Assembly (NCBI GenBank): GCA_904420125.1 | Contig: CAJFUK010000047.1 | Location: 1 to 64,000 of the forward strand | Source: Candidatus Falkowella caecavicola | GTDB taxonomy: Bacteria; Bacillota; Clostridia; Oscillospirales; Ruminococcaceae | DNA length: 64,000 nucleotides | Direction of reading: 5' to 3' | Part shown: positions 37,843 to 51,997 of the stretch, one piece after another | Layout: each line of letters opens with the position of its first letter | Position numbering within the stretch: position 1 is the first letter of the stretch | The notes under the pieces: model-generated | Database searches by the model: none | What the model was told of the DNA's origin: nothing | What the model saw: the letters and a program-made list of their open reading frames with translations, nothing else | Made by a program: the position numbers and the translations under genes

Positions 37843-37923
37843 AGCGGTGTTGAAACTCCTGTCCCTGAATCTGTGCTCCCATTGTTGTTATGATTTTTGA
37901 CTGCAAAATATTCCCACAGGTTT

Positions 37924-37952
37924 ATTATAACGGCAAACACATCAGAAAGCAA
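37924..37952 (-). promoter_or_regulatory. predicted promoter of the DUF1934-decarboxylase-darA-holB-ricT run
   Basis: On the minus strand TTGCTT (37952-37947), 17-bp spacer, TATAAT (37929-37924). Confidence 0.7.
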
Positions 37953-38891
37953 TCAGGATTTTCATGGACGGCCTTTCTATTTTCAAAATAAAATGACAGG
38001 GGAGGCAAGCCATTGCGCCGGCCGCAGGTATATGGTTAAATAAAAGTATAAAAACTGGAATTCAGCTGGGGAAAGGGGAGCCCGGCATATTCCAGTGTTC
38101 TTCTTCGTGATGAAAGTGTTTTACGCGAATGCTGTAAGCTTCCTTACGATATGGAAAGTCTCAGATTATTTTTCTCTATGATAAAAGTCAGCCACATCAC
38201 TGGCTACTGGGATTGCCTTTGAAAAAGGGTTATCCTTTCTTGACGAATATGCATATAAACTTTTTCATGACAGGCCGCCAAAGTAATCGGAACCCCATGC
38301 GTTTAAAAATCAAGGTCAGGTACCCGCTTACGATATCGGCGGGCACTGAATTACAATACTTGTCTTAAACTTGCCGAAAAAGCTAATTGGGTTAGAACTT
38401 TCTTCGAACAGTCGGGTTCCCGTGAACTCGGAATAAAATATTGATATAGTATCCATACAGCCCATATGCCTTCTGCAATCATAACAGCTGTTTTGGATCT
38501 ATCACCTGAAGTGTTTATAAACAAAAATTTATGTTACTCTATATGGGTATCATCAACGCATAATAGGAATCCTGGAATGAAAACCTGACCACTGGCGGTA
38601 TGAAGATAAGCTTAACGCGCAAAGCCACCAATGGCAACATCTCAAGGGAGAGATGTTGCTACTCTGGCGGCGTATTAGGCCGGCTTATGCTGTGTACCCC
38701 AATAAAAATGAAAACGTGGAAAGCGACCAGTTCTATTTAGAACAGAACTAGTCGCTTAACTTAATTTTGGCGTCTACGAAGTCTTAATCATTTCATTGAA
38801 AACTACGTCGTTTGTATTTTTTAAATTTATTCCTGAAAATTCAGAGAAATTATCGGATACTATCCAATATCCTTACGCAAAAATAAAATTT
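37953..38891. other. gene-free stretch with hairpins, no recognisable coding relic
   Basis: About 940 bp without a credible gene in any frame. Hairpins: a 10-bp ATCTC-type stem near 38638-38660 (loop AAGGGA) and a 14-bp stem with one mismatch near 38719-38756. Short protein-like fragments appear in several frames but none could be tied to a family. It marks the boundary between the core run to the left and the AT-rich glycan cluster to the right. Confidence 0.5.
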
Positions 38892-39920
38892 TTAGAATTT
38901 AATGTCAATATGTAAAATTTTTGTTAATGTTTTGTAGGCCCATAAAAATAATGGAAAGCAGTGTATCCGATAGCAAATTTTTGCGACCCATATACCAATT
39001 CCCTTAATTCCTCTATGCTTCAAAGAGGAAAACCTGAACCAGCGGTTATCTCGAAACCATCCAAAGCAATCGGAAAAATACTGATTGACCCATTCAAATA
39101 CCCTTTTCCTGTCAATATCAGGATTATCATAAGCCCGTGATGTCATGGAAATACCAATATGTATGAAAGCAACAAGCGCTACCGTATCTTTAAGCCACTG
39201 ATATTCCGTCTGCCTCCAGATATTTTTTAACTGGTTGCCAAAAGCATATATCGTTTCTTCCTGTGTGTTCGAGATAATGGAGCCAGCACGAACGCGGTAA
39301 TGGATTAATATCTTGTCGATACAGGCGATTTTATGGCAACTGTTAAATAGATCCAGTTGAAAAGATAAATCTTCTCCTACTTTAAAATCTGGAATACGAG
39401 TTTCGCCAATGATAGATACCAATATCAACTTATTCCATAAAGATCCATTTATAAATGCCAAAATATCATTTTCCACCGGTAAAGAAATCTCATAGGGAAA
39501 GCCGAGCATCTCTTGACATAAGACATGTCCTGTCTCATATTCAAATCGATCATAGGCGCACAATGTGATTTCCGCTCCTGTCTGAACTGCCGCCGTGTGG
39601 AGCTGTTCAAGGTAGTCTAACTGTATACTATCATCGCCATCCAGAAAGACCAGGTAGCGTCCTGATATTAGATGACTGTCTAAAACCGCATTGCGAGAGC
39701 GGGCAGGGCTCCCCAACGGGTGTTCGCCTAAAATCACATGAATCTTATCTGTATGTTGGGTTTGATACTGCTTCAAAATCTCTCTTGTGCGATCTGTTGA
39801 ACAATCATCATAGACCAATATCTCAAAGTCCTGGTAGGTTTGATGTAACAGTTCATCCAAACATTGTGTGATATATTGTTCCAGATTGTGAGATGTAATA
39901 GCCACTGTAATTTCCGGCAT
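38892..39920 (-). CDS. family 2 glycosyltransferase
   Basis: 342 residues from ATG 39920, preferred over 39944 because GGGGGT is correctly spaced before it. GT-A fold with VAITSHNLEQYITQCLDELL, the donor-binding DD in VYDDCSTD, and the DXD-type FLDGDDSI at residues 94-97, then a C-terminal alpha-helical region with two basic hydrophobic patches. It should add a sugar to a lipid-linked glycan at the inner face of the membrane. It is the last gene of the glycan operon. Confidence 0.9.
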   Translation of the reverse strand: MPEITVAITSHNLEQYITQCLDELLHQTYQDFEILVYDDCSTDRTREILKQYQTQHTDKIHVILGEHPLGSPARSRNAVLDSHLISGRYLVFLDGDDSIQLDYLEQLHTAAVQTGAEITLCAYDRFEYETGHVLCQEMLGFPYEISLPVENDILAFINGSLWNKLILVSIIGETRIPDFKVGEDLSFQLDLFNSCHKIACIDKILIHYRVRAGSIISNTQEETIYAFGNQLKNIWRQTEYQWLKDTVALVAFIHIGISMTSRAYDNPDIDRKRVFEWVNQYFSDCFGWFRDNRWFRFSSLKHRGIKGIGIWVAKICYRIHCFPLFLWAYKTLTKILHIDIKF

Positions 39921-39952
39921 ATTTACCCCCAAAATATAACTCAAATTTGCTG

Positions 39953-41179
39953 TTATTTTATATTTACTTTTCTTATATTTCTAAGAAAAAGAATACTGTA
40001 CGCAGCCAGAATGATTATATGCACGACGGAAAAAGAAATTGCTGCGCCGGTGATTCCCATTCCATTCACCAATCCATATGTGATAGGAATAGAAACAACC
40101 GTTGCAAAAATATAAATATAAGATATATCTCTCTGCTGACGCATAATCACAAAAATATAATAGAAGAGCTGACAAGCCGCAAAGATTCCCCCGCCAAATA
40201 CAATCCATATAAGCGGAACAACTTGAGCGGTCAAATCCTTTTGATAGAGCAATCCCAAAACAGGCGCTCCCAACAGCCACGCTCCTATGCAGCAAAACAC
40301 TGTAAATCCTGCAACCAGCCCCATTTGTTTGACAAGAACTTTACGAAATTGCGCAATTTGTTTGGTCTCCAATAATTTGGCATATTGGTTCAGCATAGGT
40401 TTAAAAATAAATTGACTGCATAAGTTAATGACCTGCGCTGGCATGAAAACCATATTATAGTAACCTTGCGCTGTGTCATTCAACAAAAATTCAATCCCAT
40501 ATTTTGAGGCGTTGATTACAAAATTCATTAGTAATACGCTCGCAAACAAAGGCAAACATTCCAGCAACAATGTTTTAGGCGTACACCCTTCCTCGCTGTG
40601 TGCAGGCTCTTTCTGCAAAAAAGCAGGCGCTACCTTTTTGATGTAATAACCTGTTGTGACCAGATTGCATAATATTTGCAATACAAGCGCCAAAACCAAC
40701 TGGCCCGTTAGTACTAATGTAAAACAAAATACAATCAGCGGCCACAAAGTACGAAAAAACAGGGCGGAACCAGATAAATCCAACCGATTATTCTGGAAAA
40801 ACAAATTTTGATAAAGATCCCCGACCACATTGAGCAACATAAAAATACTCAGCAAAATCGTAAGAAGGGACTTTTCTTTGGTAAACCGCAGTACCATAAT
40901 ACTGATAAGACATACCGCTAACATAAGGATACAAGACAGGTATCTTAGTTTCTTATAATCAGCAAAACAGTATTTCTTTTTATAATCTGTCATCTGATAA
41001 TGGGATACACCCAATAACCCTACAATATATAAAAGCTGCGCTGTGGTAAAGGCAATTCCAAATACGCCCGCTTCCTCAACTGTCCCAAACCGGCTAACCA
41101 TCATCAGCATGATAAAACTGTTCAGGCCGTATATGGCGCTACCTAAGGTATTCCATAAAGCTCCGTTGTGTTTCCGCAT
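39953..41179 (-). CDS. oligosaccharide flippase (Wzx-like, MATE/MVF fold)
   Basis: 408-residue integral membrane protein, about 12 helices, of the polysaccharide-biosynthesis flippase type: NTLGSAIYGLNSFIMLMMVSRF at the N terminus, FGIAFTTAQLLYIVG, and charged residues spaced within helices. The Wzx role, flipping lipid-linked glycan from cytosol to outside, is assigned by family and by its place between glycosyltransferases. Its presence agrees with a Wzx-dependent pathway even though the ABC exporter ATPase upstream is broken. Confidence 0.88.
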   Translation of the reverse strand: MRKHNGALWNTLGSAIYGLNSFIMLMMVSRFGTVEEAGVFGIAFTTAQLLYIVGLLGVSHYQMTDYKKKYCFADYKKLRYLSCILMLAVCLISIMVLRFTKEKSLLTILLSIFMLLNVVGDLYQNLFFQNNRLDLSGSALFFRTLWPLIVFCFTLVLTGQLVLALVLQILCNLVTTGYYIKKVAPAFLQKEPAHSEEGCTPKTLLLECLPLFASVLLMNFVINASKYGIEFLLNDTAQGYYNMVFMPAQVINLCSQFIFKPMLNQYAKLLETKQIAQFRKVLVKQMGLVAGFTVFCCIGAWLLGAPVLGLLYQKDLTAQVVPLIWIVFGGGIFAACQLFYYIFVIMRQQRDISYIYIFATVVSIPITYGLVNGMGITGAAISFSVVHIIILAAYSILFLRNIRKVNIK

Positions 41180-41195
41180 TATATTTCTCCGAAAA

Positions 41196-42287
41196 TTAAA
41201 TTTGTAACATCATGTTAATATGTTTAATTGATTGTTCACGATCTTTGATAATATAATTATTAATCATTTCGTAGTCAATCACATTATCTATATTAAAATA
41301 ATGATTTTCGGAAAAAAGACGATCTTCAAGGCCCAATAATTCCAATAAATTTGTAATTCGTGAATGGGTATCCTTTCCATACTCAGAAATTTCCACAGCA
41401 AATTGTTTGTTAAAAATAATTGAGAATACAAGTCCATGAAATGCGTCGGTAAAAATATACTCCGCATTTTTTATATAGCCCAACCATTCTTCTGGAGTAA
41501 GATAAGGCTTTCGAACGCAAGAAATTTGTTTTTTTATAGGGAATGGACAGTATATAACTTTCAACCCTTTTTCCTTAGCAATTTTCTGCGCAAATTGAGT
41601 AACAACTGCGTCATATTGAACTTGATAAACAAAAATATATTTTTCTTTTTCCTTGGGTTCTATAGCTAATTCCGCCCAGTCATCAGCAGTTAACAGGAAT
41701 GCGGGATCTGCCACTCTAGGGGCACTTAAACCCGTAATTTCTTCAATAATCTCTTTCCCTCTCCGTTCTCTCGTTGTAATATATCCAAAACCCATTGCTA
41801 ACTGACGGAATTCCTCTCTAAATCCTTTTCTCATTTCATCTTGAGCCAAACTAGCAGCGTAAACAACCTTGCGATTTCTTTCATGAATAAAGGGAAGAAA
41901 ATTATTTATATTAAAATAATTAATTTTACAATTCCAAAGTTGGTCTCCTCCAATGATAATTTTATCATATTTTTGTGAAATATTCGGTAACGTTGTATCA
42001 GAATATTTTTCTTTACTTGTACTCATTAAAGAACGAAAATGGGAAAAACTGCGCTCTCTTGGTAAAACAAATACAGAAAAGTATCCCAGTCGTAACAAAT
42101 AATGTATCAACCCTGTCTTTTTTATCATTGACAACTTCCAGGGTTTCTTAACTTCATCGGGCAACCAAGAAATAGTTTCAACATTGTATCCCAATTCCCG
42201 CAGTTTTCGTTCTAGTGCATAGGCCAGTAGTAAAGCTCCATAATTATTTACCATCCAATGATTAATAATACCAATTCTTTTTTCCAT
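41196..42287 (-). CDS. polysaccharide pyruvyl transferase family protein
   Basis: 363 residues. Family marks: IGIINHWMVNNYGALLLAYAL at the N terminus, the GGDQLW motif at 113-118, and DAFHGLVFSII near the C terminus, all typical of CsaB/PssM-like pyruvyl transferases that attach a ketal-linked pyruvate to a hexose. I choose ATG 42287; the ORF extends upstream to 42338 with poorer support and the ribosome site is weak. Negatively charged pyruvylated glycans are used as S-layer anchors in some Firmicutes, so an anchoring role is possible here. Confidence 0.85.
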   Translation of the reverse strand: MEKRIGIINHWMVNNYGALLLAYALERKLRELGYNVETISWLPDEVKKPWKLSMIKKTGLIHYLLRLGYFSVFVLPRERSFSHFRSLMSTSKEKYSDTTLPNISQKYDKIIIGGDQLWNCKINYFNINNFLPFIHERNRKVVYAASLAQDEMRKGFREEFRQLAMGFGYITTRERRGKEIIEEITGLSAPRVADPAFLLTADDWAELAIEPKEKEKYIFVYQVQYDAVVTQFAQKIAKEKGLKVIYCPFPIKKQISCVRKPYLTPEEWLGYIKNAEYIFTDAFHGLVFSIIFNKQFAVEISEYGKDTHSRITNLLELLGLEDRLFSENHYFNIDNVIDYEMINNYIIKDREQSIKHINMMLQI

Positions 42288-42384
42288 ATTACCACCATAT
42301 CTTTTCCTTAACCCCATCAGTAGATTTAAATAATGCAATCCTGGATAAGAGTTTGAAAAACAAATAAAATTTTATACATAATAT

Positions 42385-43830
42385 CTATTTTCCAATCTTC
42401 TTAATTCGGAACCAAATATAGGTAAATCCACCTTTCATCACCCTCTTAAATTCAACCCAGTTTAAATTGGCCAAGAAGGTTTTGAAAATATAGGTAAATG
42501 AAAAATAATAACGGCTCATTAGATTATCTCGAATTTTTTCAATTTCCTTGTGATCCGCATAGGGATAATCCACCAAACAATCCAGATAACCATCCTGATT
42601 AAGCCATTTTGAATAATCTTCGGTACGCAAATACCCGTTTTCCTTTACCCACTCATAAAATGCTGTGCCGGGGAAGGGGACTGCCTGCTGGAAAAAGACC
42701 ATATCCGGATAGAGTTTTTTAGCAAACCGGAATGTATCCTCTATCGTCTCCAAATTGTCTCCTTTCAGTCCAATCATAAAGCAGCCAAACACCTTGATTC
42801 CCAATTTTTTAGTGTTGCGCGCAAATGCCTCGGACTGCTCCAGCTTGATTCCTTTACGAGTCTCATCCAGTACTTCCTGGTTCCCAGACTCGTACCCGAC
42901 AACTAACAGGCGGCAACCAGCCTTCTTCATTTTTGCCATCGTCTCATAATCCAAAGTATCCGCCCGCGTGTTGCAAGACCACACCAGCTTCAATCCGCGC
43001 CGCATAATCTCATCACAGACCTCTGCAACCCGTTTTTTATCCACGGTAAAGGTGTCATCCTCAATGAATATCTCACGGATATATGGCATATGATTATGGA
43101 TATATTCCAGTTCATCCACAAAATTATTTACGCTTCTGCGACGAAAACGTCGCCCGCTCATGCTCTCCGGATAAGAACAGAAATTGCAGCGGAAGGGGCA
43201 TCCCCGGGCGCTAAAAATCTGAATCATCGGTTTTTGGGCAAAAGCATAACAATAGTCATTTACATCCAAGAATTTTTCATAGACCTTGGAAACCATGGGC
43301 AACGTATCCAAATCCTCCGTCCAAGTGCGGTCCGGCTGGCGAATAATTGCCCCACTGTTATCCCGATAGGTGATCCCTTGAACCTGGGACAGATCTCCCC
43401 AGTTTTTCATAATCTCATCCAGTGTAAAGTCATATTCCTGGCGCGCCACCACATCGATAACCGGACACTCCTCCAGCACACGCTCTGACAGGACAGTCGC
43501 GTGTGTTCCGCCAATCAGAATATGCACGTTTGGATTGGCATCCTTAATCGCCCTCAACACTTCATAGTCGTGAACACAGGTAGAGGTAGTCAATTCCCCC
43601 ATCAAGAAGTCAGGGGCAGAATCTTTCACCAGTTGAACTGTCTGCTCCGTCGTCATTTTTTTTGCGATGCAATCCACCAGTTCCACTTGGTAGCCTCGGT
43701 CCATACAGACACCCGCTGCATAACACAGCCAATATGGATAGTACATCGTACCGCTTTTGGTTTTTTCCGGCCAGCGGCTGGCTCGGCTGATTTCAAATTT
43801 GTAGGGTAAATTCAAAAAAAGAATTTTCAT
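42385..43830 (-). CDS. B12-binding-type radical SAM enzyme
   Basis: 481 residues. N-terminal Rossmann-like domain of the cobalamin-binding family (FLNLPYKFEI, then IGGTHATVLS) and a central radical SAM core with CX3CX2C at Cys 211, 215, 218 (ARGCPFRCNFC). The C-terminal portion (FFQQAVPFPGTAFYEWVKENGYL) resembles BchE and Hpn-type radical SAM methyltransferases. ATG 43830 has GGAGG. The His of the DXHXXG cobalamin motif is not obvious. Context, inside a glycan operon, suggests methylation or another radical modification of a sugar or lipid carrier. Confidence 0.88.
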   Translation of the reverse strand: MKILFLNLPYKFEISRASRWPEKTKSGTMYYPYWLCYAAGVCMDRGYQVELVDCIAKKMTTEQTVQLVKDSAPDFLMGELTTSTCVHDYEVLRAIKDANPNVHILIGGTHATVLSERVLEECPVIDVVARQEYDFTLDEIMKNWGDLSQVQGITYRDNSGAIIRQPDRTWTEDLDTLPMVSKVYEKFLDVNDYCYAFAQKPMIQIFSARGCPFRCNFCSYPESMSGRRFRRRSVNNFVDELEYIHNHMPYIREIFIEDDTFTVDKKRVAEVCDEIMRRGLKLVWSCNTRADTLDYETMAKMKKAGCRLLVVGYESGNQEVLDETRKGIKLEQSEAFARNTKKLGIKVFGCFMIGLKGDNLETIEDTFRFAKKLYPDMVFFQQAVPFPGTAFYEWVKENGYLRTEDYSKWLNQDGYLDCLVDYPYADHKEIEKIRDNLMSRYYFSFTYIFKTFLANLNWVEFKRVMKGGFTYIWFRIKKIGK

Positions 43831-43875
43831 TTCGGCCTCCATCATACTGCAAAATTTTTAAATAACTGTATATCC

Positions 43876-44250
43876 TTATTTATCAGAATTTTTTTCTTCG
43901 ATATTTTCAGTACACTCTTTCGGATTTATGTGTTTCAATGCGTAAATTTCCACAAAGGTTTGCAATTTACTTTCCAACTGTGAAATACGAATAGACATCC
44001 GGAACAATTTCAAAATTAAAATAAAAATGATGGATAAAAAAATAAAGTTGACAGAAGATTGTACCCCTATAAGGTGCGCTCCCCAATCTACAACACTTGG
44101 AAAAATTCCAATGAAAACCAAAAAAATAGAAAATAAAAACCAGAAAACAGAATCTTCTATTTTTACTTGCGCTTTCCGAATTCGCATAATAATCCAGAGA
44201 GAATTTAAAGCCGCCACTATAATCAATATTATCCTCAAAACCGTCGACAA
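43876..44250 (-). CDS. DUF2304 membrane protein
   Basis: 124 residues of DUF2304: three hydrophobic helices (about 4-22, 33-52, 67-86) and an amphipathic C-terminal coil (ISQLESKLQTFVEIYALK). The charged, partly KIEDSVFW segment after helix 1 is the family signature. DUF2304 genes accompany DPM1-like glycosyltransferases, as here; the gene ends immediately next to that GT (stop at 43876, start 44250 against 44251). Function unknown; a membrane scaffold for the glycosyltransferase is an inference. Confidence 0.85.
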   Translation of the reverse strand: MSTVLRIILIIVAALNSLWIIMRIRKAQVKIEDSVFWFLFSIFLVFIGIFPSVVDWGAHLIGVQSSVNFIFLSIIFILILKLFRMSIRISQLESKLQTFVEIYALKHINPKECTENIEEKNSDK

Positions 44251-44946
44251 TTAAATCATCTCCTTTGGTCTAAAAAATTGGACAAACAGAATAGAAATAA
44301 ACATATTGAGCATGTATCGAATCGATTTCCCCATACTTAAATAACTTACACCCGCCACTCTTTCGTGCATTTCTACCTGAACTTCAGAGATATTTGCGCC
44401 GCAATGAAGTAAATATGAAATGGTATCGGGCTCAGGGCCATAGTTGATATTATGGGAGAAAAGGTGGATCATCCGTTTATTAAACAGCCGCATACCAGCC
44501 GTTGGATCATTAATCCGTTTGCCAGTAGTAAGCCGGATCGCAAAAGAAATCATCGTATTTCCCAACATGCGCATGGTTCTGGGCTTTTTCTTATCACAGA
44601 ATCGAGAACCTATTACAATATCATAATTTCCTGATTGCATAGCATCGATCATCGATGAAATATATTTAGCATCATGCTGGCCATCTCCATCGTACTGAAT
44701 CGCCATATCATAGCCATATGCATATGCATAGCGCAAACCGGCTTGAAATGCACCAGCAAGCCCCAAATTTACCGGAAGATCAATAAAATGATATTTGTTT
44801 TTCCTGCATATTTCTGCCGTATGATCTTTAGAACCATCGTTCACGATAATATAATCATACTGCGAATAATTTTGTTTCAGGTTCTCAACCACGGTCTCGA
44901 TATTTTCCTGCTCATTATAAGCAGGAATAATAATTAACGTTTTCAT
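44251..44946 (-). CDS. dolichol-phosphate mannosyltransferase-like GT2
   Basis: Polyprenyl-phosphate glycosyltransferase, 231 residues. Opening LIIIPAYNEQENIETVVENL, DXD as YDGDGQHD at 86-91, and NDPTAGMRLFNKRM are the DPM1/GtrB marks. The ATG at 44946 fits the family N terminus; the longer ORF to 44988 includes the copy of a tandem repeat described separately. It probably loads a sugar on undecaprenyl phosphate at the cytosolic face. The C terminus lacks the membrane pair of full GtrB proteins. Confidence 0.87.
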   Translation of the reverse strand: MKTLIIIPAYNEQENIETVVENLKQNYSQYDYIIVNDGSKDHTAEICRKNKYHFIDLPVNLGLAGAFQAGLRYAYAYGYDMAIQYDGDGQHDAKYISSMIDAMQSGNYDIVIGSRFCDKKKPRTMRMLGNTMISFAIRLTTGKRINDPTAGMRLFNKRMIHLFSHNINYGPEPDTISYLLHCGANISEVQVEMHERVAGVSYLSMGKSIRYMLNMFISILFVQFFRPKEMI

Positions 44947-44974
44947 TTTTTCTTCAATCCAGTCTTTTTTTATA

Positions 44975-45044
44975 ATTGTGTAATTCAAAATTTGATTTAT
45001 TACCGCACCATTGTGTAATTCAAAATTTGATTTATTACCGCACC
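44975..45044. repeat. 35-bp tandem duplication at the DUF2142/GT2 junction
   Basis: Two exact copies of a 35-bp unit (44975-45009 and 45010-45044). One copy supplies the 3' end of the DUF2142 gene, the other runs into the start region of the GT2 gene. Because 35 is not a multiple of three, the frames differ by one; collapsing the repeat would place both coding regions in a single open frame. Confidence 0.95.
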
Positions 45045-46892
45045 ATGGAGCGCCAATAAAATAAAAAGCTCGATTTTTTCTATATTTTTTTTCAGTACAA
45101 TTGTCTGATTATTCAGCGACATTGCCAATAACGGTAAAATCGGAATAAAGTATCTGCCTTGAACACCTTCAATAATGCTTTTTCCTTCACTGGTATGGCC
45201 CAAAAACATAGACAACATAACAAAAGCTATTACCCCAAAAGATGTAAGCAAAAACACTGCGCGCACATTCCAACGCAACTTAAAGTCCGAATTACTGTAA
45301 TTAAAAGAAGAAAGGCACAATATCACAAGAAACATATTTGTAATCCAAGAAGGGATACCTAATGATAACCCACTTAATATGGAACCAATACAAGTATATA
45401 AATATATTTTAACTTGTGAAATAAATGTATTGATAAAAATTTGAATTGTACTGATTGGGTTTTCTATTATATAGCTTAAGGTGTAACTATTTTTTCCTTC
45501 CCAATTGGGTTTTACTGTTTCCACCCCATATTTATTGATTAACTCAATACCTCTAAAAACCATCAGTATGGCCAAAACACTTATAAAAATAACAGCAATT
45601 TTCAGCACTCTTTCTTTTGTGTTTTTAAATCTCTCTTTGGGAATTAAAATAACCAGTAATAAAAGCGCTGCATATACAACTTTTGTTGGAGCCAAAAGCA
45701 TTCCAGAAATTAAAATGCATCCAAAATCCCTTTTAGATAAAAGCCCTTTTTCATAAATTGCTTTTAATAATGATGAAATTAAAAATAGTGAAACACCATT
45801 AATAAATCCATCGTATGAAAAAGACGCAGCCTGATGTATAGCCATGGGTAATATACCTACAGTACCAATCAGCATTTTGAATTTTGGAGCTCGCTTTACC
45901 GCAAAATAAATACAAACTACATAAAACGTCAAATTGCATAGTCTTCCGAATAAAAATGTAGTAATAAAATTTTGGTTTGTTATCCGTGCAATTGCAATTC
46001 CTGTTGCCTGTGGCAAATATTCTACAAAATAGTCCAATCCACGCGGCGCTGGAATTTGTATTAACTCTCCTTCTTGCGCCGGTTTTCCAATCTCTTGAAA
46101 TATTTTTAAATATCCATTTGAAATATTATAATGACCTGCTAACTGCGTATAGTCAAAATCAGCAGAATTTCCCATATCATTGTCGTCCCACTGAAATAAT
46201 AAAAAATTAGAGAGCTGATATGCAGACTGATAATGATGCGGTTCATCGGGAGGAGACAGCGGTGTGATAACAATTAAATAAAATATTCCCACCCCCATAA
46301 TAAAAATAGCAAAAAACTTTTCTATGCCAAAATTAAATAAAACTAAAAAATATATTCCTATTACTACAAAAATCAAAAATAATACAATTATTGTAGGCTC
46401 AAATATTTTTAAAAATTTTGTATTCTCGTCATTTATTACAATAGAGTCTAAAGAAAAACGTTCCTCTACTTTTGTACCTATATCAATTCTGCAAGTAGTT
46501 ATTTCTTTGCCTAATAATAAACTAGCAGACTGCTGCCCTTGTCTTATGTGCACCGTTTCTGTATATGTGTTATTGTATCCATGATCTTCTTCGGCATAAT
46601 AAACGGTAATGTTTAATGGCTGTTCCACTGGCTCCGAAAAAACAAGGGTTATTCCACCTACAAATTGATTCAATTGGGGAAGCTGTAAATGCGCGTCCCC
46701 AACCTGATTGACAAAAAGTTGCCCCTCCTTGTTATATCCATAAACTTTACAATCCTCTAATACAATTTTTTGAGAGTCCCCCCACTGCTGATTGATATTT
46801 ATTACTTTCACAGTCAATCCTATCAATAGAGAACCAATTATACAGAAACATATAATTGTAAAAACTTTCCGCTTCTCAATAATTTTTTTCAT
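45000..46892 (-). CDS. DUF2142 multi-pass membrane protein
   Basis: 630 residues. The family signature PPDEPHH is at 214-220, ahead of ten to twelve hydrophobic helices; a hydrophobic helix at 13-31 opens the protein and a beta-rich extracytoplasmic domain lies between. DUF2142 proteins occur in ABC- and Wzx-dependent glycan clusters and resemble GT-C membrane glycosyltransferases. The start ATG 46892 overlaps the previous stop (ATGA), indicating coupling. The stop lies inside the tandem duplication, so the natural C terminus may have been altered. Confidence 0.88.
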   Translation of the reverse strand: MKKIIEKRKVFTIICFCIIGSLLIGLTVKVININQQWGDSQKIVLEDCKVYGYNKEGQLFVNQVGDAHLQLPQLNQFVGGITLVFSEPVEQPLNITVYYAEEDHGYNNTYTETVHIRQGQQSASLLLGKEITTCRIDIGTKVEERFSLDSIVINDENTKFLKIFEPTIIVLFLIFVVIGIYFLVLFNFGIEKFFAIFIMGVGIFYLIVITPLSPPDEPHHYQSAYQLSNFLLFQWDDNDMGNSADFDYTQLAGHYNISNGYLKIFQEIGKPAQEGELIQIPAPRGLDYFVEYLPQATGIAIARITNQNFITTFLFGRLCNLTFYVVCIYFAVKRAPKFKMLIGTVGILPMAIHQAASFSYDGFINGVSLFLISSLLKAIYEKGLLSKRDFGCILISGMLLAPTKVVYAALLLLVILIPKERFKNTKERVLKIAVIFISVLAILMVFRGIELINKYGVETVKPNWEGKNSYTLSYIIENPISTIQIFINTFISQVKIYLYTCIGSILSGLSLGIPSWITNMFLVILCLSSFNYSNSDFKLRWNVRAVFLLTSFGVIAFVMLSMFLGHTSEGKSIIEGVQGRYFIPILPLLAMSLNNQTIVLKKNIEKIELFILLALHGAVINQILNYTMVR

Positions 46893-49800
46893 TTTAAAGA
46901 AAAATCCTCCCTATCCAATGAAAAATTAGGGTTGTAATAAGGATCGCCTGCTGCCAATTCTTTTGCCCACCGCTGTTGAAAATGCCGAACTTCTCCTTCA
47001 AATCGTTTCTTTTTTTCCGGGGTATCTTCCGGACCTCTACTTTTTGATTCATAATGATACAGTTCCGCGTAAGGAGTCCAAACAATTAAATATCCTGCTT
47101 TCCGAATCCGCATACATAAATCCACATCATTAAATGCAACTTCAAACGACTCATCAAACCCGTCAATCTCATTCCATACTTTTTTAGAAACCATCATGCA
47201 CGCAGCTGTTACAGCACTCAAATTTTGTGCATAATATAGTCGTCCCATATATCCTACATTCTCTTTTGGCGTTCGGTAAAATATATGTCCGGCCGTTCTA
47301 TGAGCACCAAGTCCCAATACAATTCCAGCGTGTTGAATCGTATTATCAGCATAATAAAGTTTAGCTCCGACTGCACCCACATCTGCTCGTTGTGCGTACA
47401 TTAGCATTTCTTCCAGCCAATCTTTCGTAATAATTTGGGTATCATTATTTAAAAAAACAAGATATTCTCCGTTTGCATACGATACAGCAAAATTATTAAT
47501 AGCCGAAAAATTAAAAGGATGGTTCCATTCTATAATTTTAATATTTGAACATTTTTTAATTTTATTATAATATTCAACTATTTTTTCATTATCGCTTCCA
47601 TTATCAACAACAACAATTTCATAATTTGGATATGTTGTAAAATTCAAAATAGATTCTATACATCTTGACAAATCCTCATAATGATTTTTATTAGGAATAA
47701 TAATGGAAATTAATGGTCTTCCTTTTAAGGCATATTTAATCTGATAAATAGTCGGAAACGCAACAGAACTTTGAACATCTGCATTCATTCCACATCGATA
47801 CAAATGATCTTTAACAGCTTTTTTTCCTGCATTAATTGCATATGCTTTAGAATTTATATCTTCTGCAACAGAATTGGGATGTGAACGCCAATAATATAAG
47901 ATTTTAGGAATATGTACAATCCTTTCTGCATTTTCTGTAAGGCGCAAAATAAAATCATGATCCTGACTTCCATCATATTCTGAACGAAATAAACCAGATT
48001 TTTTTAAGAGTTCTTTAGATAACACAGAAAAATGACAAATATAATTATTCGCTCTTAAATTGTCAATCGCAAAATCTGGTTTAAAATGTGCAGTAATGAC
48101 ATTTTCAATTTTATTGGAAAACGTCAATTCATCCGTATAAATGAAATCTGCATTTTTATCACAAATTGCATGCATCACCTCATATAATGCAGCCGGATGC
48201 AACAGGTCATCATGATCAAAAAGACCGATATAATCCCCGGACGTCATTTCTATACAAGCATTTGTGTTTCCAGAAATCCCAAGGTTCTCTTCCAATTTTT
48301 TATAAAGAATCCGTCTATCTTTCCTTGCATATTGCTGACAAACTTTCTTGACATAGGCATGCTTTTCGTCACTGCCGTCCGCCATGCAAAGTTCCCAGTT
48401 TTGATAAGTCTGATCTAACACGGACTGTATCATTTCATGTAAAAAATTCTCCGGTGTATTGTACAATGGTACAACAATACTAAACTTTATTTCTTTTGGA
48501 AACTTTTCTGTTTTTTGCCGTTGGAGTTCCTCCTGTGAGTATAACGGTTTAGCCGCTAAAAAGTTTTGGCGATGATGCCTACGATCCTGTACCTTTTTCC
48601 ATGTGTAAGAAAACCCATTCTGCTTTAAACTTTTCAATCCCTTACAGAATAAGTATGTATACTGGTTCCGCTTTAAAAGACTCTTTGTAGCATCCAATAC
48701 CAAGCGAATTGGCTTTGTAATCTTCCAGCAGGCGGCATTAGAAATCGTAGCATACATTGCCTGCGTCTGTGCCAGCTGCTGCGCCAATTCGCTGCGCTGA
48801 TTTATCGCAGCATGATAATGCAGTTGGTACTGGGCAAGCTGCCGATCATGATCTTCCAATACAGCCTTCATTTCTTTCTTTTCAGAATTCTCTTTCTGGA
48901 GATCTTTTTCCAACTCTAAAATCCGGTTCTGGAGGGAATAAACCTCTTCTTTTGATTCTTTCTCTAATCTTTTTAGCGTCTCAACTGTCTGTTTCCAGGC
49001 TAATTCTTTCTCCCGGATTTCCTGTCCCAAAATCTCGCAGTGTTTTTTCTCATTTTCAATTTGAGTTTCAGCGGTATTTTTTTCTGTCTCTAAAGACTCT
49101 GCTCTTTTACTCAATTCAGAAATTTGGGTTTCCTGGCTGGCAAACCGTTGATTCCACTGATCTTCTTTCGATTTTTGTTCCGCCGCTAACTGAGCAAATC
49201 GATTTTTCCACTGATCTTCTTTAGACCTTTGTTCCTCTTCTAACTGAAGCAATTGCGTGTTCCATTTTTCTTCTGCAGATTTTCTTTCTGCCTCTATATT
49301 TTGAATATGCACTTCTTTATTATGAAGTTCTAATTGAATAATCCTGCTTTGAGATAACACATGGGCTTGTCTATGGGCTTCAAATAATGTAGAAAGGAGA
49401 TTGTTGGTCTTTTTTTTGCCCCACATATTTTTTATATATAGATCTAAATCTTCAATATTTGTATGGGACATTACATAAAACGCTCTATAACAACTATCGG
49501 AAATATCGGAAGGATATATTTTTTCATTATAATAGTGATCAATATTGGTCCTGTATTCTAACGTTTCCGGCATAAAGACTGTATCAAAATGGCAGTACCA
49601 AAATCTCTCCCAAGTCTCAATATCCCCATGGAAAAATGATAGAAACAAAATTTTGTTTTCATTTAAAAATGTGTTTATTTCTTCCAGATTCGGAAGTCCG
49701 TTTTCAATATGCTCCTTTAACCAAATAAAATCCTCTCCAGAAATTGTTTTATAATAAGTATTTACACGGCTCTCCGCATCTTTAATGTCCGAAGAATCAA

Positions 49801-50182
49801 AAGGAAAGCATAAAACTGTACTTCTTTTGGAGACACGATAAAGCTCCGAAAGAAAAGATTGACGTTTTTCTTTCGGAATATGTTCTAAAACATCTGTCGC
49901 AACAACAAAATCAAAATAAGCATCTTCAAACGGAAGATTTGTTCCATCTAACTGCCGAAATTCTGAATCATTTTGCATTTTCTCTGTTAAAACAATATCT
50001 GAAAATAAAATATGATCTTGAGGCAAAAATAATTTAAGATCTTTATGCTCATTTGAGCCTATTTCTAAAATTTTAAAGACATCTTCTGGCTTATCTTTTC
50101 GAAAAAAATTGATGATTCTTGATACAGTCTCATATCTCTGATATTGATCAAACGCTATATATTCTTTAGCATTCATTTCCAT
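46889..50182 (-). CDS. methyltransferase/coiled-coil/double glycosyltransferase fusion
   Basis: 1097 residues in four parts. A class I SAM methyltransferase (motif I LEIGSNEH at about 39-46; DFVVATDVLEHIPKEK at 91-106). A long coiled coil (about 280-480) with a near-tandem 17-residue EEQRSKEDQWKNRFAQL-type repeat. Then two GT2 domains: the first from about 567 (IVVPLYNTPENFL; DHDD at 656-659), the second from about 825 (IIIPNKNHYEDLS; NNDT at 912-915), the second resembling rhamnosyltransferases. Start ATG 50182; its GAGGGG ribosome site is the tail of the wzt relic. Probably assembles and caps or methylates the chain end, with the coiled coil as a length ruler by analogy to WbdD-type systems; this role is inferred. 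Confidence 0.88.
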   Translation of the reverse strand: MEMNAKEYIAFDQYQRYETVSRIINFFRKDKPEDVFKILEIGSNEHKDLKLFLPQDHILFSDIVLTEKMQNDSEFRQLDGTNLPFEDAYFDFVVATDVLEHIPKEKRQSFLSELYRVSKRSTVLCFPFDSSDIKDAESRVNTYYKTISGEDFIWLKEHIENGLPNLEEINTFLNENKILFLSFFHGDIETWERFWYCHFDTVFMPETLEYRTNIDHYYNEKIYPSDISDSCYRAFYVMSHTNIEDLDLYIKNMWGKKKTNNLLSTLFEAHRQAHVLSQSRIIQLELHNKEVHIQNIEAERKSAEEKWNTQLLQLEEEQRSKEDQWKNRFAQLAAEQKSKEDQWNQRFASQETQISELSKRAESLETEKNTAETQIENEKKHCEILGQEIREKELAWKQTVETLKRLEKESKEEVYSLQNRILELEKDLQKENSEKKEMKAVLEDHDRQLAQYQLHYHAAINQRSELAQQLAQTQAMYATISNAACWKITKPIRLVLDATKSLLKRNQYTYLFCKGLKSLKQNGFSYTWKKVQDRRHHRQNFLAAKPLYSQEELQRQKTEKFPKEIKFSIVVPLYNTPENFLHEMIQSVLDQTYQNWELCMADGSDEKHAYVKKVCQQYARKDRRILYKKLEENLGISGNTNACIEMTSGDYIGLFDHDDLLHPAALYEVMHAICDKNADFIYTDELTFSNKIENVITAHFKPDFAIDNLRANNYICHFSVLSKELLKKSGLFRSEYDGSQDHDFILRLTENAERIVHIPKILYYWRSHPNSVAEDINSKAYAINAGKKAVKDHLYRCGMNADVQSSVAFPTIYQIKYALKGRPLISIIIPNKNHYEDLSRCIESILNFTTYPNYEIVVVDNGSDNEKIVEYYNKIKKCSNIKIIEWNHPFNFSAINNFAVSYANGEYLVFLNNDTQIITKDWLEEMLMYAQRADVGAVGAKLYYADNTIQHAGIVLGLGAHRTAGHIFYRTPKENVGYMGRLYYAQNLSAVTAACMMVSKKVWNEIDGFDESFEVAFNDVDLCMRIRKAGYLIVWTPYAELYHYESKSRGPEDTPEKKKRFEGEVRHFQQRWAKELAAGDPYYNPNFSLDREDFSLK

Positions 50183-50186
50183 AATA

Positions 50187-50560
50187 TTATTTCCCCTCAT
50201 AAAGATCGTAAATATCTTCTGTGCTGTCAATCATTTTTATTTCTCTGTGCTCAAGCCAAAGTACCCTGCTGCACATTTTCCGAATTTATTCTAAACTATG
50301 GGAAATAAACAGCACAGTTGCGCCTCCGATCAGCAAGTCCAGCATCCTGGTCTTGCTTTTGCCCGGAAGCCTGCATCCCCAACCACAAGGATTTTATCAA
50401 CCATCAGAATCTACGGTTTTACCACTGCAGCTACTGAAAATACGCGCGGCATCCGTATCCCGAAAAAACTATTCCGGATAGAAATATCGATAAATTCCCA
50501 AGTTCAGAAAATTCTACGGTTTCCTCATAATTACCTGTCAAATATTGCTGGCAATATCCC
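50187..50560 (-). pseudogene. decayed ABC polysaccharide-exporter ATPase (wzt/tagH relic)
   Basis: On the minus strand, pieces of a Wzt/TagH ATPase can be read by changing frame. They include ETVEFSELG then EFIDISIRN, GIRMPRVFSVAAVVKP, an imperfect ILMVDKILVVGDAG (Walker B region), TVLFISHSLE followed by a stop, then IRKMCSRVLWLEH and the tail KMIDSTEDIYDLYEGK ending at TAA 50187-50189. At least one nonsense change and two frameshifts break it, and the N-terminal half with Walker A is missing or unreadable. Boundaries are approximate. The last codons supply the ribosome site for the next gene. Confidence 0.8.
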
Positions 50561-51417
50561 AGATTTTGCAGAAGCCAGCCAAGCTCCTGATAAATGCCGA
50601 AATCCATGGCGCACCACATACAGGCCCTTTAACTGCCCGCGCGTAACCATATTGTCCGATTTACCAACGATTAACAGGATTTTCTTTATAATGTCGATTT
50701 ACGCATCCCGTTGTAACTGCTGATGCTATACTTCTGTCCCACCTTCCTCTTTGCAACCATCAATTACTGAGCAATAAGCCTCCACATATAACAGTCGCGA
50801 AATTGAAGCCTTTATCACAAACTGGCATGGTCTGCTTGTCCACACGTTGGCGATGATCCATGGGATTCGCTTCTCCGGGGACTAATACGGGCCACAATTA
50901 TTGAAGCCCTGGCTGATGGTGATCGGCCACCCATAATACGGGGATATGCTTTACATAGCAAATCCGCCGACGCTTTTGAAACCAAATATGAATTTACAGT
51001 GTGTAGTGACACCTTTTCTACCACGAACAGATCCGGACAAGTGAACGGCAGACCGTAATAAACCCCGTCCGTAGGAAAACCAGTGATATTTCTGGCTTTC
51101 CTATTTCCGGTAGGCAGTCAAAAATGCCTGCGTTCCTATCACATTTGTCAGCCAAAAGACAGACGGTTTTTCAATCGACCGATCCATATGGCTTTCTGTC
51201 CCGAAAATCTCAGATACGACCTTTCTGTCAGTAATGTCCGCTTTCACGAATTTGAAATCTTTGTTTTCCATAATGGGGCGAGTGTTTCCAAATTCTCTGC
51301 GTAAGTCAGTGCATCCAAACAGACGATCATGTCCGTTGAATGTTGGCAGGTATATAATAAATAAAGTAACTACCCATAAATCCGGTTCCGCCAGTTACAA
51401 GAAGCTTTACTTTTACC
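50560..51417 (-). pseudogene. decayed dTDP-glucose 4,6-dehydratase (rmlB relic)
   Basis: Frames can be joined to an RmlB-like protein: KLLVTGGTGFMGSYF (NAD-binding), then FKFVKADITDRKVV, TESHMDRSIEKPSVF, TNVIGTQAFLTAYRK, VSKASADLLCKAY, and a final GKSDNMVT with GAWLASAKSGI. RmlB homologues have the same order (AESHVDRSIEDP, TNVIGTQ, SKASADLLV). Frame changes and stops are scattered across it, so no functional enzyme is made. End points are approximate because it merges into the wzt relic. Confidence 0.82.
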
Positions 51418-51706
51418 ACCCTTCAAAGCCTGTGACAGCATCTGTAAAAAAAATAGGAATCCACGGTCTTTTTGAGACAACATGAGATTTTCTATATCCC
51501 ATTTCACCACAAGTTATGGATCATTCCAACAGATCCCTTCGGCATATAGTAATTTCTACTTTGTAGAAAAAATTCTCATCGTCTGTGCGCATAATAAGCC
51601 CATTTTCGAATCACTGAGGATCAAAAGTTAACCCCTATCTTTCGCCGTCAGCTTCACCGCAACCCATTTTTTATAGTCTCGGCTGCTGGGACACAGATTC
51701 ACGACT

Positions 51707-51997
51707 TTATTCAATATGGAACCCTCTTTCCACAGCACACCAGATTCGCCTGCTCACCGCGCTGAGAATAGATCCCGCGCAGAGATCGCCTCCAACAAAT
51801 TCTTCCTTTAAAATAAATGCCTGTGCAACACCATTTGCCGGCGGCCGCACTTGATAGGAAAACGATATTCTAAACTGACTCCCATCACCCAAAAACCGCT
51901 CAAATTTCGGTAGATCCTGCGACATAAAAATCATCAAAATTCTCGCGATCATCCGCGTGGACAAGGGGTATTCAATCACTGATTTATCGTAAAAAAC
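51707..51997 (-). pseudogene. fragment of glucose-1-phosphate thymidylyltransferase (rmlA relic)
   Basis: An internal fragment of RmlA is open for about 97 codons on the minus strand: VFYDKSVIEYPLST, SQDLPKFERFLGDGSQF, ISFSYQVRPPANGVAQAFI and LKEEFVGGD. The RmlA family reads VYDKPMIYYPLSTLM and LPRFEQLLGDGSQ at the same places. The N-terminal GGSGTRL nucleotide-binding part and the C-terminal two thirds are absent. With the rmlB relic next to it, an Rml cassette seems to have been lost. Confidence 0.82.

Follow-up and report, generated by a model that had tools for sequence, protein, structure and literature searches.

The 64,000-nt window analysed here (bases 1-64000 of the 115.6 kb contig C47, CAJFUK010000047.1, in the 2.45 Mb, 92% complete genome of Candidatus Falkowella caecavicola) carries an eight-gene minus-strand operon that is probably one half of a secondary cell-wall polysaccharide locus of the rhamnan (Gac/Rgp/Wps) type, namely the half encoding the synthase and the side-chain machinery. 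The new part is probably a radical S-adenosylmethionine (SAM) step, rare and probably unstudied, set within this known kind of locus, and through the enzyme concerned the cell wall of this Anaerotruncus-related gut bacterium may bear a sugar of unusual chemistry. The operon is flanked by core genes such as spoVT, rimP, nusA and infB and is hence part of the bacterium's own genome; no Rfam elements or tRNAs were found in the window. The eight minus-strand open reading frames (ORFs) are all uninterrupted and span 38892 to 50182/50230, with ATG 50182, preceded by GAGGGGAAATAAT, as the most probable start codon of the first gene, in agreement with the original prediction, and the domain labels of all eight proteins lie above the Pfam cut-offs. 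The operon is real and conserved. The original prediction, made from the DNA letters, of eight intact genes forming an operon for a surface glycan, with a radical SAM enzyme of an unusual kind, is supported by ORF map, domains and locus context. From the first gene to the last, the operon comprises:

46889..50182, minus strand: methyltransferase - coiled coil - GT2 - GT2 protein of 1113 aa (Pfam Methyltransf_11 and two glycosyltransferase family 2, GT2, domains)
45000..46892, minus strand: DUF2142 membrane protein (Pfam DUF2142, 157.9 bits)
44251..44988, minus strand: DPM1/GacI-like GT2 (Pfam GT2; 0 predicted transmembrane, TM, segments)
43876..44250, minus strand: GacJ-like DUF2304 protein (Pfam 87.7 bits; three predicted TM helices)
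42385..43845, minus strand: HpnJ-like radical SAM protein with a B12-binding-type domain (Pfam Radical_SAM 92 bits, B12-binding 65 bits; CxxxCxxC at C216/C220/C223)
41196..42338, minus strand: polysaccharide pyruvyl transferase family protein (PS_pyruv_trans, PF04230, 128.4 bits)
39953..41179, minus strand: Wzx-type flippase, putatively in a GacK-like role (Polysacc_synt, PF01943, 34.8 bits against a cut-off of 28.2)
38892..39944, minus strand: terminal GT2 glycosyltransferase (PF00535), co-occurring with the radical SAM gene

In Streptococcus pyogenes, the cytosolic glycosyltransferase GacI, aided by the three-TM protein GacJ, produces undecaprenyl-P-N-acetylglucosamine, which the Wzx-type flippase GacK flips and from which the GT-C enzyme GacL passes the sugar to the rhamnan (PMC8035078). 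The DUF2304 domain is typical of GacJ-like proteins encoded directly downstream of a gacI homologue (PMC8327497), and in lactococcal loci DUF2142 proteins are inferred WpsJ-type transferases (PMC12599335). The window follows the same plan, with the GacI-like gene (44988-44251) running immediately into the DUF2304 gene (44250-43876). The GacI-like protein, for which the nearest NCBIfam family is the polyprenyl-phospho-N-acetylgalactosamine synthase PpgS (at a score below the PpgS cut-off) and the PDB relative is dolichol-P-mannose synthase, is likely an undecaprenyl-phosphate sugar synthase. The DUF2142 protein is likely a GT-C transferase of the GacL/WpsJ kind, to judge by a low-confidence structure model: the membrane part aligned best to the GT-C enzymes ALG12 (Z 11.5), STT3 and ArnT (these three at Z 8-11.5), ALG9 and AglB, and an N-terminal extracytoplasmic beta-sandwich (residues ~41-154) resembles carbohydrate-binding modules, while Foldseek gave no whole-protein match at a useful TM-score.

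The large first protein is likely a rhamnan-type backbone synthase with an N-terminal methyltransferase. Its gene directly follows wzt in the loci of Anaerotruncus colihominis DSM 17241 (L022) and UBA3818 (L019), and it is the sole copy in its genome, where the remaining matches are short GT2 proteins of 29-32% identity. Relatives of the synthase (E up to 1e-100) occur in 41 of 148 genomes of the family; in six such loci examined (L162-L167), the synthase gene comes after wzt every time, and rml genes lie nearby in five. The genes for deoxythymidine diphosphate (dTDP)-rhamnose and for Wzm/Wzt expected of such a locus are present in the window in part, as pseudogenes in place, and are intact on contig C59 of the same genome and contiguous with the rest in L022. 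A strong match to the radical SAM protein, in turn, was found in three of the 148 genomes, with the window's own as the only member of its tight subfamily and the other two 39-41% identical. The backbone locus is therefore common in the family, and its radical version rare.

Compared with the Gac (GacA-L), lactococcal Wps and Rgp rhamnan loci, the window shares the GacI-like GT2 gene with a gene for a GacJ-like DUF2304 protein directly after it, the Wzx-type flippase, the DUF2142 membrane transferase, putatively GT-C-like, and backbone genes accompanied by rml, wzm and wzt. It differs in having an HpnJ-like radical SAM enzyme and a pyruvyltransferase, in a synthase whose domains, an N-terminal methyltransferase among them, form a single large protein, and in a locus apparently divided between two sites, its first half having decayed here. 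A 23-gene cluster makes the glucorhamnan of Ruminococcus gnavus, likewise a rhamnan from a clostridial species, which bears side chains of glucose; the review text that describes it does not mention a radical SAM gene (PMC12413058). No description of such a set was found in the open-access literature searched, which omits most subscription journals, and to this extent the claim that it is undescribed stands. An isolated pathway is not supported, however: taken without the radical SAM enzyme and the pyruvyltransferase, the set matches the known machinery for rhamnans and their multi-component transmembrane side-chain glycosylation, and the idea of a unique pathway of its own was rejected.

Among curated families, the radical SAM protein is matched best by HpnJ (TIGR03471, 419.7 bits), with a lead of 219 bits over the next family, BchE (200.4 bits). 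Across 32 genomes, the HpnJ model yields three bands, comprising true HpnJ (717-727 bits), HpnJ-like proteins (393-479 bits) and other B12-domain radical SAM proteins (<254 bits), and the window protein and its kin fall in the HpnJ-like band, with a gap below it down to 253 bits. A phylogenetic tree places them in a 31-row clade (Shimodaira-Hasegawa-like approximate likelihood ratio test, SH-aLRT, 100) made up of clostridial (10 rows, support 97) and methanogen (21 rows, support 97) sister groups. Profile band and tree together assign the enzyme to an HpnJ-like superclade of B12-domain radical SAM proteins; the sister groups point to transfer of the gene between domains of life, with either direction compatible with the tree. 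Cobalamin binding is predicted from the Pfam B12-binding domain.

HpnJ makes bacteriohopanetetrol cyclitol ether from a glucosamine derivative (PMC12583986), and calditol synthase (Cds) of the Sulfolobales is required for ring contraction of lipid-linked glucose, by which the hexose on the lipid becomes a cyclopentyl head group (PMC9385802). The genome of the Sulfolobus acidocaldarius control also matches the HpnJ model, below its cut-off. Like the HpnI-HpnK-HpnJ pathway, the window has a radical SAM enzyme from the HpnJ-like superclade and a GT2 gene associated with it, and the substrate proposed here is likewise a sugar on an isoprenoid-type lipid. It departs from that pathway in its score (419.7 against >700 bits for true HpnJ), in two changed barrel residues and in its wall-polysaccharide context, and from Cds in that the substrate of the latter is an archaeal tetraether lipid. 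Hopanoid biosynthesis itself was rejected, as the window's own genome (92% complete) has no squalene-hopene cyclase above cut-off (PF13243 at 18.5 bits against 26.1). By analogy with HpnJ and Cds, our leading guess for the radical step is ring contraction to a cyclopentane polyol. Within the pathway proposed below, we regard ring contraction as possible but short of an even chance, other sugar edits as a somewhat weaker prospect, and methylation as rather improbable.

The AlphaFold2 model of the enzyme (predicted local distance difference test, pLDDT, 93.4) has AprD4 as its nearest solved fold (Z 35.7 over 424 residues), followed by MgmA, OxsB, CysS and TsrM, as well as TokK. AprD4 is a radical SAM dehydratase acting on the amino sugar of an aminoglycoside. 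The same pathway might include another edit of the sugar, such as 1,2-diol dehydration or deoxygenation, epimerisation or oxidation. This alternative draws on AprD4 as the top structural match and on the replacement of two barrel residues that are conserved elsewhere, which speaks for a changed reaction, but the cluster showed no AprD3-like reductase and the sequence score for AprD4 is 97.9 bits against 419.7 for HpnJ; we consider it doubtful, if well worth keeping in view. Methylation, which the original prediction had named among the possible modifications, is not favoured. A cobalamin-dependent C-methylase giving a branched-chain (C-methyl) side-chain sugar would fit the B12-binding-type domain, which scores above the Pfam cut-off, and the likeness of the fold to the methylases TsrM, TokK, CysS and MgmA, and there is precedent in GenK and GenD1, which methylate aminoglycoside sugars (PMC5461906). 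No C- or P-methylase family exceeds 140 bits against the 419.7 of HpnJ, however, the nearest fold is that of a dehydratase and the cobalamin binding is a prediction, so that we hold this alternative to be unlikely.

The closest homologue of the radical SAM protein (88% identity) is found in Candidatus Ruthenibacterium merdavium (Oscillospiraceae). A genome contig scan extended its tight subfamily (64-88% identity) to Ruthenibacterium, other Oscillospiraceae, A. colihominis DSM 17241 and one Lachnospiraceae metagenome-assembled genome, as well as to 21 genomes of the Methanobrevibacter/Methanovirga type; a next tier (48-55% identity) comprises Parcubacteria, Margulisbacteria and Aenigmarchaeota, followed by a broad set at <=43%. 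The radical SAM gene recurs with the same partners, and the complete set can be read in A. colihominis DSM 17241, where the contiguous order is rmlB-GT2-rmlD-wzm-wzt-synthase-DUF2142-rSAM-acetyltransferase-pyruvyltransferase-flippase-GT2-GacI-GacJ (rSAM, radical SAM gene); in UBA3818 the locus is nearly complete in one piece. The order GacI-GacJ-rSAM is kept in the window, L020, L045 and the Parcubacteria locus L047, and DUF2304-rSAM in L044.

The terminal GT2 appears to be coupled to the radical SAM gene. Among the 148 family genomes it occurs solely in the one bearing the tight-subfamily gene and was not found in the 147 relatives, all of which lack that subfamily, and copies of 50-53% identity are present in all four of the radical SAM loci L017, L018, L019 and L022. 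This restriction to radical SAM carriers is the strongest sign that the two work as a pair, and we propose an HpnI-like role for the terminal GT2. Elsewhere, a GT2 gene occupies 35 of the 91 slots next to HpnJ-like radical SAM genes, often with overlapping reading frames, whereas among other ORFs the figure is 30 of 683 (p 9e-19, computed ignoring phylogenetic non-independence; odds ratio 13.6). This adjacency parallels the HpnI/HpnJ association. The pyruvyltransferase, which the original prediction had considered in combination with the radical SAM enzyme, is the variable member of the set. Its identity across loci is 29-35%, and in L018 (L018:3766-5702, read by eye from the sequence) hexapeptide acetyltransferase-, cytidylyltransferase- and LicD-like genes, a glycerol-phosphate-type cassette, replace it beside the radical SAM gene. 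This weakens a functional tie between the two; judging from these sequences, the position is that of a variable, putatively capping cassette. The window's own pyruvyltransferase resembles CsaB weakly, and no sequence relative of it was found in PDB.

The substrate of the radical SAM enzyme might instead be a lipid of the membrane or a different polyprenyl carrier, with its location in the operon incidental. The substrates of HpnJ and calditol synthase are indeed membrane glycolipids, and the Methanobrevibacter gene is mostly solitary, but in Clostridia the gene stays with the GacI/GacJ-like genes, the flippase and the terminal GT2 despite changes in gene order, and we judge this possibility to be quite unlikely.

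The rhamnan reading of the window is completed by what lies upstream of the first gene, which the original prediction had overlooked together with an intact copy of the set on another contig. Searches with intact proteins (tblastn) identified the following remnants, interrupted by stops and frame changes, in the order rmlA, rmlC, rmlB, wzt, with rmlD and wzm gone:

51776..51991, minus strand: rmlA pseudogene fragment
51463..51723, minus strand: rmlC pseudogene fragment
50645..51443, minus strand: rmlB pseudogene
50193..50562, minus strand: wzt pseudogene, related to the A. colihominis/UBA3818 type, in three frames with 2 stops

On contig C59 of this genome, the genes rmlA-rmlC-rmlB-rmlD-wzm-wzt form an intact run (L145:13052-19121, minus strand). 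It has no synthase, though one normally follows wzt, and the contig continues into endonuclease III. With the remnants in place and C59 running past wzt in this way, the idea of a missing half lying just past a contig break was rejected. The window remnant is 49-58% identical to the A. colihominis/UBA3818 type against 35-39% to the C59 gene, and the C59 gene is 66-76% identical to the wzt of five ordinary family loci. We infer two rhamnan loci that underwent complementary loss, with one working set kept at two places. Two extracytoplasmic stretches of the C59 Wzm (L145:13801-15501) are homologous to the N-terminal beta-sandwich of the window's DUF2142 protein (27% over 128 aa, E 1.7e-6; 22%, E 7e-5), which ties the C59 half to the window half; a beta-sandwich common to exporter and transferase is possibly a polymer-binding domain.

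That the locus is a decaying remnant making nothing, its eight genes just not broken yet as rmlA, rmlC, rmlB and wzt are and as rmlD and wzm were lost, we regard as very unlikely: in the upstream 1.8 kb the reading frame changes several times and meets 9 or more in-frame stops, a rate at which ~66 stops would be expected in the 11.3 kb eight-gene block against 0 observed, so the block is maintained rather than decaying alongside its neighbour, and the intact C59 run without a synthase together with the single genomic synthase indicates that each half has been kept once. The dN/dS ratio of the radical SAM gene is ~0.04 (against one homologue), a measure given only where it was computable, as dS is saturated for most gene pairs.

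The analysis shows what the genes are, in what kind of locus they lie, which of them are coupled and where they belong in evolution; the following working scheme for the rhamnan pathway is inferred in all its substrates, in its sequence of steps and in its radical reaction. The intact rmlACBD genes on C59 would supply dTDP-rhamnose, from which the methyltransferase-GT2-GT2 protein would assemble a rhamnose-rich backbone for export by the C59 Wzm/Wzt. The GacI/GacJ-like pair would attach a sugar to undecaprenyl phosphate and the terminal GT2 a second one, and the HpnJ-like enzyme would then edit a sugar of the lipid-linked side chain. The outer sugar is most simply its substrate, since the GT-C enzyme needs an anomeric centre on the phosphate-linked sugar, which that sugar would lose if its own ring were contracted. 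The pyruvyltransferase or an alternative cassette would cap the side chain, the flippase would turn the lipid-linked side chain over, and the DUF2142 GT-C protein would move it onto the backbone.

Several observations weigh against this reading. The radical SAM protein scores well under the HpnJ cut-off of 577.6 bits, and its tight subfamily has F353 and F384 in barrel strands where HpnJ and most HpnJ-like proteins have H353 and Q384, replacements by which the reaction may differ from that of HpnJ. The DUF2142 structure model is of low confidence (pLDDT 62), the GT2 beside the radical SAM gene in L045 is only 26% identical, and most methanogen radical SAM genes are solitary, without GacI/GacJ. 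Placing the sugar editing ahead of the flippase is an assumed order, and a polysaccharide structure was found for none of the locus carriers.

If the scheme is true, a radical-edited side-chain sugar on such a polymer would give human gut bacteria a class of cell-wall chemistry that is new, and one enzyme family would connect it with hopanoid and archaeal-lipid chemistry; clostridial rhamnans such as the R. gnavus glucorhamnan have been reported to be immunoactive via TLR4 (PMC12413058). The complete locus in the cultured A. colihominis DSM 17241 makes the proposal directly testable. The radical SAM gene is common to gut Clostridia and gut methanogens, groups living side by side. A far broader proposal, which we put forward as speculative and on balance improbable, is that HpnJ-like radical SAM enzymes, each with a GT2, form a widespread and unrecognised family making carbocyclic (cyclopentane) sugars on polyprenyl-linked glycans, of which the cross-domain subfamily in gut Clostridia and gut methanogens would put such a sugar on the cell surface.

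Some further features were observed around the operon and its relatives. The window contains ~1 kb without a clear gene 3' of the operon (37850-38890), possibly decayed sequence. In the Methanobrevibacter/Methanovirga loci (L024-L043, L046), the radical SAM gene is 64-68% identical and lies mostly alone amid housekeeping genes, with a GT2 adjacent in some Methanovirga. Genes for a thiamine-diphosphate enzyme and for an NAD-dependent epimerase/dehydratase-family protein lie near the radical SAM gene in one methanogen (L042:7174-12760) and in the Lachnospiraceae locus (L045:260-4785), which suggests a branched-chain-sugar-type pathway nearby. Viral contigs yielded only distant B12-domain radical SAM proteins (<=32% identity). 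In distant Bacillota (L011, L013), HpnJ-like radical SAM genes stand with pairs of HPr-kinase-like proteins and with polyprenyl-type GT2 genes, a recurring neighbourhood read by eye.

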